A stretch of DNA of 64,000 nucleotides, from contig NZ_CP026115.2 of assembly GCF_009883635.2 (NCBI RefSeq), positions 1,178,001 through 1,242,000 of the forward strand. Reading direction: 5' to 3'. Shown here piece by piece: positions 45,525 to 48,215 of this stretch. The notes below the pieces were generated by a model. The model did not search any database and had not been told where the DNA came from. It saw nothing but the letters and a program-made list of their open reading frames with translations. The translations under genes were made by a program, and so were the position numbers. Source of the stretch: Pseudomonas putida. Lineage in GTDB: Bacteria; Pseudomonadota; Gammaproteobacteria; Pseudomonadales; Pseudomonadaceae. Numbering within the stretch: the first letter of the stretch is position 1; every line of letters starts with the position of its first letter.

Positions 45525-47267
45525 TCAGGGTTGGGGTTGATCGGCCATCTGCACTGAACGCGCCTGACGCATCAGGTCTTCGAGCATGCGCCGGGCGATG
45601 GCTTCCAGTTGTTGCAGGGTGGTCGGGTCGTCGAGGCTGTTGTTGAAGGTCACCGGCATGTTGGCGGTGAAGGTGAATTGCTGGTTGATGGTGGGTGACA
45701 CCGTAGCCGGTGACTGCTGTGTGGAGGTCGCAGGTGACCCAGCGCTCTCCTGAGTAGGGGCTGCCTGGGCGGGAGAGTTCACAGCGTCTGGCCTTGCGCC
45801 TGGCGCATCGTTACCGGTGACGGAGGCCACGGTTTTGCCGAGCCAGCCGCCTGCGAATTCACCCGCCATACCGCCGAATATCCCACCGCCCAGACTACCC
45901 AGCGCACCACCGACGGCGGCACCGATCACGGTCCCTATGCCTGGCACCACCGAGCCGATCATGGCGCCGGCTGCAGCACCACCCAGCCACCCAGCCGAAG
46001 ATCCCGCCAAGGTGCCGCCCAATCCGCCGACGGTCTGGCCATAACCTTCCAGTTTTTCTGCAGGCGTGGCATCACTCTGGTAGGTGTCGAGCACCTGCGA
46101 TGAGGTGTCCAGCACCGCAGCCACCGGAACGCGTTTGAAGAATTTCCCAACCGACGACAGCTGCTTTCCTGCACTGCTCAGAGAAAAGGCCAGTGCAACC
46201 TGGGATTCAGATTGACCCTCGGTCAACGAAGACGCCTCGCTGCCAGAAGCCGCGGGGTCTTCATCTTCCGTGAGCAGGTTGAACAACCCACCACCGGCCC
46301 TGTCTCCCACAGCCTCGCCAATCAGGCCGCCAGCTTCGGCCCAGCGCTTTTGTGCGGCCTCGTCCTGCTTTTTCTCTTCAGCCTCTTGCACTGCCTGCTG
46401 CTTGGCGGCTTCTCGCTGTTCCTTGGCGTTGGCTTTGCGTTGGCTTTTTCTTGTGCGTCGGGGTTTAACCGCAGCCGCACTTTTACCCGTGCCGATGGCC
46501 TTGCCGAGCGCTTTACCTTTGCCTCTGAAAAGCATGGCTCCCATAGCACCCAGCGCACGGCCACCGAGGTCGCCGAGCGCAGCGCCGGTGCCGCGTGCCA
46601 TTTCTTCACCATCCTCGCCAGTGATCACGGCCTTGGCGACCTTGGCCAAAGCCTGGGCACGGTTTTCCCGCCACTCCGTCAAGCCACGTTCGCGTATCGC
46701 TCGCTGTTTTTCCGGCGACTGTTTGCGGTAGGCGCGAACGTATGCTGTTCCAAGTCCCAGAGCACCGAGGCCTCCGGCGGTTATTGCAAGGCCTTTGCCA
46801 AGGGTAAGCGAGGCGCCACCAGCATCCGGTTTGGGCTCCTGTGCAGGTGCTTTCACCTTGCCCGCTGCGGGGGCTACCTGCCCTTGCAAGACAGCGTGCC
46901 ATTGCTGAAAGACATTGACCGTCATCTGGCCAGGCAACGGCTTCAACCGCGCCAACCCGGCAATCACCCGGTCCAGCATCAGGTAATGCTGACGCAAACG
47001 CTCGACGGCCTCGATCTCATCGCCCAGCCGGGCGATCTGATCGTCATGTTGCTGTTGCTGGTCCAGCGCCAGCTGGCGTTCGACCTGGCGTACCTTGCCG
47101 AGCTCCAACCCCAGGCGGATTACCTCGCCGATGAGCCGGCGGAGCCGGGTGCCACCGGCCTGCCTGCGCAGGCGTTCGACATCCCGGCGCAGCAGGTCGA
47201 TGGCCTGCCCCAAGGGGTTGATGACGGTGACGCCGAGCCCGAGGGTGAACACCTGTGTGTTCGCCAT
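45525..47267 (-). CDS. Tail tape measure protein
   Basis: Product of 580 residues that sets tail length. The N-terminal 130 residues are coiled coil. Hydrophobic segments lie near 160 and in a long Gly/Ala-rich region (about 425-490). Lys/Arg/Ala-rich helices lie between. AAGGAGG precedes ATG 47267. It follows the chaperone E/E' as in all contractile tails. Confidence 0.9.
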   Translation of the reverse strand: MANTQVFTLGLGVTVINPLGQAIDLLRRDVERLRRQAGGTRLRRLIGEVIRLGLELGKVRQVERQLALDQQQQHDDQIARLGDEIEAVERLRQHYLMLDRVIAGLARLKPLPGQMTVNVFQQWHAVLQGQVAPAAGKVKAPAQEPKPDAGGASLTLGKGLAITAGGLGALGLGTAYVRAYRKQSPEKQRAIRERGLTEWRENRAQALAKVAKAVITGEDGEEMARGTGAALGDLGGRALGAMGAMLFRGKGKALGKAIGTGKSAAAVKPRRTRKSQRKANAKEQREAAKQQAVQEAEEKKQDEAAQKRWAEAGGLIGEAVGDRAGGGLFNLLTEDEDPAASGSEASSLTEGQSESQVALAFSLSSAGKQLSSVGKFFKRVPVAAVLDTSSQVLDTYQSDATPAEKLEGYGQTVGGLGGTLAGSSAGWLGGAAAGAMIGSVVPGIGTVIGAAVGGALGSLGGGIFGGMAGEFAGGWLGKTVASVTGNDAPGARPDAVNSPAQAAPTQESAGSPATSTQQSPATVSPTINQQFTFTANMPVTFNNSLDDPTTLQQLEAIARRMLEDLMRQARSVQMADQPQP

Positions 47268-47280
47268 AGGTTCCTCCTTG

Positions 47281-47394
47281 TCACGGTGCGAGCCACCAGA
47301 CCATGTCGCCATACGACATGGTCATGATTTCGCTCGCGGAAAAGTTCAGCTCCTTGGCCAGCCGCCTGGCGGCGGCCTTCTGCCGGGCCGGGTC
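47281..47394 (-). CDS. Tail assembly chaperone E' extension, reached by +1 frameshift
   Basis: A 37-residue reading frame (starts DPARQKAAARRL, ends YGDMVWWLAP) with no start codon of its own. It begins exactly where E stops and ends 13 bases before the tape-measure start. E ends in CTT-TGA-C (47392-47398); moving forward one base at CTT reads GAC next and enters this frame. CTT-TGA-C is the same heptamer as the prfB (RF2) +1 site. Tail chaperone pairs made by frameshift are standard in phages. Confidence 0.7.
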   Translation of the reverse strand, partial: DPARQKAAARRLAKELNFSASEIMTMSYGDMVWWLAP

Positions 47395-47695
47395 AAAGTT
47401 CGTCGTCCTGCACCAGGCGAAAATAGCCGCTTTGCAAGCGGCTATAGTCCTTCAGGGCAAGGCCTTCAAGGTCCTTGATGCCGACCTCGGCCAGCGACGC
47501 GAACAGGTTCAGCTCGCGCTGCTCGTCGTCGACGCCGCCACCGGCCTGGGCATTGCGGATATCGCGCACGGTCGGTGCGCGCAGCGACAGGCTGTCGACC
47601 TGCACGCCATTGGCTTCGCTGGGGCGCGACAGGCGTACGCTGACGCGGTCGGCACTCAGGGTCAGCCACTGTGGCTGCTTTTTCGCTTGAGCCAT
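47393..47695 (-). CDS. Tail assembly chaperone E
   Basis: Product of 100 residues (AQAKKQPQWLTLSADRVSVRLSRP onward), of the P2 gpE-like tail assembly chaperone type, placed between the tube and tape-measure genes. It ends in the shift site described for E'. Start at ATG 47695. Confidence 0.85.
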   Translation of the reverse strand: MAQAKKQPQWLTLSADRVSVRLSRPSEANGVQVDSLSLRAPTVRDIRNAQAGGGVDDEQRELNLFASLAEVGIKDLEGLALKDYSRLQSGYFRLVQDDEL

Positions 47696-47705
47696 GGTCG
47701 CCCCC

Positions 47706-48215
47706 TTACAAGCCGAGCGCGGCGCGCTGGGCCGCCAGCTGATCAACGCCATCGATCACGCGCTTCATGCCCAGCGCGTCGATCTCGTAGAGCAGGCGGC
47801 CATCGACTTCCAGCTTGTAGTAGCTCAGGCCGACGCTGTGCTTGATCTCGGCCTTGTCGCCGGATTTCCAGTCGCCCATGTCGATTTCCTTCAGAGTGCC
47901 GCGCAGGGTCACCACCACCGGGGTGATTTTGCCCTTGAGGCCCTTGAAGGCGCCGCGGAAGGTACCGTTGAAGCCGCTGCCATCGGCCAGGCCGAAGAAT
48001 TTCAGCGCTTCACGGCGCACGCCGGTGGTGGTGAAGGCCGCTTCCTGTTTCTCCATGCCCAGGTCCATCTCGACCGGCATGTCCATGCCGCCGGGGCGGT
48101 GCTCTTCCATCTTCAGGGTGAGTTTGGGCAGGGTCAGGTTGGGTACATCACCCTGGAAGCTGACACCATCGACGAACAGGTTCAGGTTGGCCAGGGTTTC
48201 GGGAATCATTGCCAT
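47706..48215 (-). CDS. Major tail tube protein (FII-like)
   Basis: Product of 169 residues of the P2 FII family (AMIPETLANLNLFVDGVSF start, LKFFGLADGSGFNG, VVVTLRG and ALGMKRVIDGVD). It forms the inner tube. It lies 13 bp after the sheath gene. Confidence 0.93.
   Translation of the reverse strand: MAMIPETLANLNLFVDGVSFQGDVPNLTLPKLTLKMEEHRPGGMDMPVEMDLGMEKQEAAFTTTGVRREALKFFGLADGSGFNGTFRGAFKGLKGKITPVVVTLRGTLKEIDMGDWKSGDKAEIKHSVGLSYYKLEVDGRLLYEIDALGMKRVIDGVDQLAAQRAALGL

Follow-up and report, generated by a model that had tools for sequence, protein, structure and literature searches.

The window, that is, the whole 64,000-nt stretch of Pseudomonas putida DNA analyzed here, contains a tailocin cluster flanked by recA and mutS, one on either side. 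The cluster, on the minus strand, is composed of a tail tube gene (47709..48215; PF04985, E=2.8e-58), gene E (47396..47695; PF10109, E=1.4e-20; phrog_166, E=2e-22), the E' frame, a tape-measure protein gene (45528..47267; phrog_794, E=1.4e-17, with the ORF scanned from 47312), and then homologues of GpU and GpD; a tail-fibre gene also belongs to the cluster. The tube gene product matched the R2-pyocin tube chains in PDB entries 3j9q and 6pyt (E=2.8e-71 and 4.5e-71, respectively). Gene E starts with the ATG at 47695, ends with the TGA at 47395-47393, and has a zero-frame product of 100 aa. This gene, which codes for a tail assembly chaperone of the E/41/14 family, is located between the tube and tape-measure genes (PF10109, PF04985, and phrog_794). 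As read by eye, the tape-measure gene following E' probably starts with the ATG at 47267 after an AGGAGG.

The last codons of E read GAC GAC GAA CTT TGA C. It had been proposed earlier that E ends exactly at the heptamer CTT TGA C and that the ribosome slips there; the letters are indeed CTTTGAC (47392..47398, minus strand), with the TGA preceded by CTT. An open +1 frame spans 47451 to 47284; it overlaps E by 19 codons and runs on for 37 codons past the stop of E until its own TGA (47281..47283). It has no ATG, GTG, or TTG until ATG codons near its end, and the same holds for the near-identical locus L001. The coordinates and the 37-codon length had been read correctly in the original prediction. 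Because the overlap between E and E' spans 19 codons, a shift is possible well before the stop of E. A putative +1 slip site, TTT_C (47419..47422, minus strand), with CGC as the A-site codon, is located inside this overlap, nine codons before the stop of E, and the +1 frame after a slip at this site would give an E' coding region of 45 codons (47284..47418; AWCRTTNFDPARQK...VWWLAP). A perfect 10-bp hairpin lies immediately 5' of TTT (47423..47445) in the fold of L001, the letters of which are identical to the window here.

Relatives of E were gathered across GTDB genomes and IMG/VR contigs, from phage records, and from a Pseudomonas-wide sample. The 531 loci with E included 4 in which E was truncated, 15 without an E' match (3 of them from a contig end), 7 with E' in the -1 frame, and 165 duplicates, many of which were one locus under different ids; the remaining 340 distinct loci had E' in +1. 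From these, 65 representatives were taken at less than 80% identity, and other analyses used 53 or 48 representatives or 244 distinct loci. In the genus search, E was found in 98 of 298 Pseudomonas genomes. The Pseudomonas-wide set of 110 consisted of 30 loci and 80 further places, with a single stretch taken wherever two matches shared one ORF, and three weak matches (G275, G534, and G410:C1:5092) were excluded from it. In the class-level sample, 4 of 274 genomes had E, the genome of the window included. The four loci of the other three genomes gave no E' match in one model search and one weak match (0.1) in another, and two of these four loci carry a GGT TTT TTC run of the -1 kind.

The E' frame was conserved in length and in sequence. 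In a genome scan, exactly 37 +1 codons followed the stop of E in 68 of 69 loci (67 titled Pseudomonas, one Pantoea, and one Paucimonas). Where the E stop lies 27 nt past TTT (48 representatives), the pN/pS of the portion of E' beyond the stop of E was 0.41 in the +1 frame, compared to 1.31 and 1.26 in the other two frames. On these comparisons, the E' open frame is more than chance and is a real coding frame under purifying selection. The HMM built from +1-type E' also detected E' in all seven phages with E' in -1 (i-E 1.2e-6 to 1.8e-3). The E' of the window received no credible label from Pfam or PHROG, and the E' of the R2-pyocin cluster weakly matched phrog_8286 (E=0.0049) and phrog_10636 (E=0.0055). 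P2 E' matched phrog_10636 as well (2.2e-5). Among the best 120 of 456 protein matches to the fused query, there was no in-frame E-E' fusion protein covering E'; these matches were E proteins of about 100 aa or proteins of 199-223 aa matching the E part.

An in-frame TTT followed by a pyrimidine was found in E in 340 of 340 distinct +1 loci (330 TTT_C and 10 TTT_T), with the E stop located 18-69 nt downstream of TTT. The distance from TTT_Y to the WW motif of E' was 41 codons in 302 loci and 40 codons in 35, and three loci were without WW. As the loci were anchored on TTT_Y, the invariance of the TTT column arises partly by construction, and the actual test lies in the finding that none of the loci lacks TTT_Y and in the fixed distance to WW. 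The loci are also related, so they are not independent trials. The Pseudomonas-wide set gave a similar picture: +1 E' was present in 104 of 110 loci and accompanied by TTT_Y in all 104, by NTT_TRA in 80, and by CTT_TGA_C in 23, while no E' was found in the six loci with the weakest matches (L531-L536).

The shift window, defined as the stretch from the last upstream +1 stop to the E stop, was common to all loci over about -12 to +18 nt around the Phe codon. In this shared window, strict +1 re-pairing was offered by TTT_Y in 340 of 340 loci and by one other codon in a single locus; however, 107 of the 340 loci have another strictly re-pairing codon in their own, longer window. TTT was the only invariant codon over columns -20 to +6 among the 65 representatives. 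The slip codon was TTT in 65 of 65, compared to 23 TTT and 44 TTC at the other Phe codons of their E bodies, and Phe usage elsewhere was 1673 TTT versus 6009 TTC in the flanking genes and 137 versus 201 at the other Phe codons of 244 E ORFs. Conservation of E', of its frame, and of TTT_Y was thus established by comparison, and from it we infer the occurrence of the shift, at whatever level. Very probably, some ribosomes skip +1 and produce a second, longer protein from the E gene. With good confidence, we place the skip at the conserved UUU-C nine codons before the stop, where tRNA-Phe would move from UUU to UUC, so that the 100-aa E would be accompanied by an E-E' fusion of 137 aa.

We further investigated synonymous sites around the slip codon in 53 representatives. 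Identity in the +1 frame was above that of synonymous shuffles at codons 0, +1, +2, +3, +5, and +6 (z 5.3, 9.3, 5.6, 15.9, 10.2, and 10.6, respectively) and not above it at codons +4 and +7, the +1 residues from TTT onward being F-A/V-W-C..T-T. In the E frame, pS was 0.544 over the 8 codons preceding TTT and dropped to 0.343 over the 8 codons following it. In support of a slip near TTT, the upstream +1 frame has a stop at codon -11 in 33 of the 53 representatives. However, the upstream codons -19, -18, -12, -9, and -7 to -4 were also above shuffles (z 3.4 to 11). The +1 pN/pS in the E/E' overlap (1.17) does not show dual coding, since it was no lower than that upstream (1.11). Within these limits, the constraint on synonymous sites agrees with a slip at TTT_Y.

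The A-site codons were CGC, CGT, CTG, TTG, and rarely CGA, with Arg CGC, CGT, or CGA in 303 of 340 loci. Most of these codons are common ones and no conserved stimulatory RNA structure was found, so neither would explain a rise of the slip above background; this counts against the TTT_Y reading. An RNA structure was considered as a stimulator and rejected, as RNAalifold found no consensus structure in seven windows across the 53 representatives, and the 10-bp hairpin before TTT in the window and L001 was not common to the family. The E-site codon was TAT in 47 of 60 representatives with Tyr, compared to 31% of the Tyr codons of flanking genes and 9 of the 19 Tyr codons within the E bodies. This TAT excess falls on the codon before the slip codon (47423-47425 in the window), at a base beyond any +1 coding constraint. 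Separately, in one E relative (L203:1501-1788), the slip codon reads TTC rather than TTT and no E' match follows; this single case fits a loss of the slip site together with a loss of E'.

Considering the end of E, an addition to the TTT_Y slip is that two +1 sites act in series, with UUU_Y used everywhere and NTT_TRA adding fusion where it is present; both fusions would be of equal length and differ in about eight residues. We regard this as rather improbable. Of the 340 distinct loci, 282 retain both motifs, and the highest codon-choice bias of all columns was at codon +8, the stop site (3.18 bits, 53 representatives). NTT_TRA is strongly conserved where present, as a second slip site predicts, and it lies outside the shared window. 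However, when Phe-Asp or Phe-Asn in E' is written as TTT GAY or TTT AAY, NTT TGA or NTT TAA appears in the E frame, and the TTT letters at the stop are therefore also explained by the E' codons plus the E stop. Among the 282 NTT_TRA sites, the stop was TAA in 94 and the P-site codon was GTT in 83, and GTT_TAG was found in three more loci. Upon scanning the 14 nt upstream of the 282 sites for five SD-like tetramers, we found none in 181, one with a 7-nt spacer in 94, and two, with spacers of 5 and 4 nt, in 7. TAA, P-site GTT, and the missing SD would make a weak slip site, and they are accounted for if the letters are set by the E' codons without slippage. The likeliest reading is that CTT_TGA_C mostly reflects the overlapping Phe-Asp/Asn codons of E' together with the need of E for a stop, and that any contribution as a second slip site would be minor.

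The original prediction had placed the whole shift at CTT_TGA_C, in the manner of prfB: ribosomes would pause at the stop, tRNA-Leu would move from CUU to UUU, E' would start at Asp, and the event would depend on release factor 2. This now appears very improbable. Besides being present here, CTTTGAC occurs in 82 of the 340 distinct loci, and NTT_TRA occurs in 282; among the 65 representatives, the numbers were 14 and 46, respectively. CTT makes up only 7.6% of the Leu codons of flanking genes, yet it occurs at this place in 32 of 53 representatives, and stop-associated +1 sites (CCC_UGA) have been described in Listeria phage tail-shaft genes (PMC5009743). However, 58 of the 340 loci, including the R2-pyocin cluster, have a conserved +1 E' without NTT_TRA, and CTT_TGA_C is absent from 258, whereas TTT_Y is absent from none. 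In some loci, E stops at +18 or +21 nt, before the CTT_TGA place (e.g., GAC TAA and GAA TAA), and other loci have CTT CAA, CCT TAC, or further sense codons here, so that E reads through and ends only at +42 to +69; TTT_Y and E' are kept in every case. Sixteen loci end with CTG TAA T and five with CTG TAA C, where re-pairing would be poor.

The hallmarks of true prfB sites also argue against a shift at CTT_TGA_C alone. According to PMC12421855, TGA is found in 98.6% of prfB sites, the next C is highly conserved, and AGGGGG lies 3 nt upstream. The prfB of this genome has that layout, with a G-run (CGGGGGTATCTTTGAC) ending 3 nt before CTT. E resembles prfB in the heptamer at its end, but the E family has no SD-like element conserved 3 nt before CTT, its stops include TAA as well as TGA, no SD of the scanned kinds was present at 181 of the 282 sites, and the motif is missing in many homologues. 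None of the hallmarks (SD 3 nt upstream, TGA, and C) is conserved in the family. The AGGA upstream of CTT in the window ends 7 nt before it rather than about nine as first described, although it is, as described, farther away than in prfB. Conservation of CTTTGAC among related clusters, which had been suggested as a check, extended to only the 82 loci above, and, to the extent that sequence shows it, homologous clusters use a different slip site to join E and E', an outcome named in advance as speaking against the CTT_TGA_C shift. The proposed link of tail assembly to release factor 2 is unsupported because CTT_TGA_C is unsupported as the site.

It is scarcely credible that E' has a start codon of its own or is translated by ribosomes that reinitiate after E: although 133 of 244 distinct loci have at least one ATG, GTG, or TTG in +1 ahead of the E' core, these lie at scattered places, the other 111 loci have none, and neither does the window. 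Hardly more plausible is that E' is an untranslated relic or that it is reached by a -2 shift or transcriptional slippage: the pN/pS of 0.41 is seen in +1 only and the length is kept, re-pairing at TAT_TTT after a -2 shift would put Phe-tRNA on AUU, and the T-run before C has only 3-4 bases.

Among known systems, the tail protein shifts on record in PMC5009743 are -1, -2, and +1, and those of tail chaperones are -1, -2, and, in one archaeal virus, very likely +1. The locus resembles P2 E/E+E' in the order tube-E-E'-tape measure, in an E' overlapping the end of E without its own ribosome site, in a slip a few codons before the end of E, and in a short common E' pattern, S-E-x3-M-S, noticed by eye. 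In contrast, P2 shifts -1 at T6G (PMC3931495), whereas the family of the window has E' in +1 and UUU_Y as the probable site; E' was in +1 in the 340 distinct loci rather than in -1 after a T6G-like heptamer, and only seven phages had it in -1. Sequence models of E and of +1-type E' did not find P2 E or P2 E', so a relationship to P2 itself is based on gene order and the family description. Phage Mu is similar in having a tail chaperone shift that reaches the +1 frame, but it slips -2 (PMC5009743). A programmed +1 shift in the tail chaperone, unlike the -1 of P2 and the -2 of Mu, was the core of the original prediction, and the comparison supports it well. The archaeal virus HSTV-2 is also similar in its tail chaperone shift, very likely +1 (PMC5009743).

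Closer relatives with E' in -1 are phages Mica, Mano, Murka, KA2-1, ep3, Persinger, and MQ-4, in which E was found by tblastn and E' by HMM. In the alignment, a Phe codon (TTT or TTC) of these phages lies some two codons away from the TTT of the window, but their E' is in -1, at A_AAT_TTT, G_GGT_TTY, and similar sites by our own reading. The frameshift product is annotated in Mica and Mano. The letters around the Phe TTT or TTC vary among the -1 loci (L070, L071, L073-L075, L077, and L078, together with L076, the E' of which was unmatched by the model) and include GCA AAT TTT A, CTG GGT TTT C, GGC CGT TTT A, ATC AGT TTT T, and CTG GGT TTC A. One chaperone family thus has a -1 branch and a +1 branch, with slip sites about two codons apart in the alignment; since both are in one family, the switch between -1 and +1 is open to study, and the -1 relatives form a ready comparison set for how the chaperone changed its shift direction.

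The R2-pyocin cluster was represented by L072, a P. aeruginosa record, the tube of which matches the R2-pyocin protein PA0623 in PDB without a difference over 167 aa, so that the statement on TTT_Y reaches this cluster. L072 has no stop at the CTT_TGA place but retains TAC TTT CGC, and its E' is laid out in the same way. In the public record (L072:1501-1845), E is annotated as a hypothetical protein and E' is unannotated. More tentatively, Pseudomonas contractile tailocins, including R2 pyocin, may use a bare UUU_Y as a natural programmed +1 site that is tuned by a UAU-rich E-site codon rather than by an SD, a stop, or an RNA structure.

Slippage of this type has precedents. In influenza A PA-X, +1 slippage by tRNA-Phe on UUU_C is documented (UCC_UUU_CGU; PMC3498833), with UUU in the P site, then C, and an Arg CGN codon in the A site as in most loci here; no stimulatory structure is known there (PMC5009743). 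Lacking a conserved SD, stop, or structure, the UUU_Y motif resembles that of PA-X, which differs in involving eukaryotic ribosomes and an unrelated gene, while the E-site codon of the family of the window is mostly UAU. In Salmonella mutants with too little tRNA-Gln, peptide sequencing also revealed a +1 slip on UUU-CAA (PMC3617221). According to PMC10885494, the program PRFect seeks +1 sites with three or four equal bases and a commoner codon in the new A site; TTT_Y would fit its equal-bases criterion. Our literature search, with most subscription journals beyond reach, found no report of a UUU_C programmed site for bacteria, phage, or tailocin and no report of a frameshift in the R-pyocin chaperone.

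In the mechanism that we propose for the TTT_Y slip, tRNA-Phe on UUU in the P site would re-pair one base forward on UUC, which would offer stronger pairing than UUU, as argued for PA-X (PMC3498833). Translation would then run on in +1 through E', and unshifted ribosomes would terminate at the downstream CTT_TGA_C. For lambda, PMC5009743 describes a chaperone model in which both forms bind the tape measure and the extension binds the tube protein. By analogy with lambda G/GT and P2 E/E+E', we infer for the function of E' that both chaperone forms would bind the tape-measure protein and that the extension would recruit tube subunits. In the more tentative reading of a bare UUU_Y site tuned by its E-site codon, the E-E' level, and hence tail assembly, would respond to tRNA-Phe charging or anticodon-loop modification and not to release factor 2. 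A hidden 137-aa protein would also be added to the annotation of tailocins, the best 120 of 456 database proteins covering only the E part.

Further, E is duplicated in tandem in some Pseudomonas loci, where a single frame of about 199 aa holds both chaperone copies. In two such loci (L065:3001-3597 and L068:3001-3570), the second chaperone copy carries TTT_C and leads into E', and open frames of about 200 aa were also seen among the protein matches and the genus-search matches.
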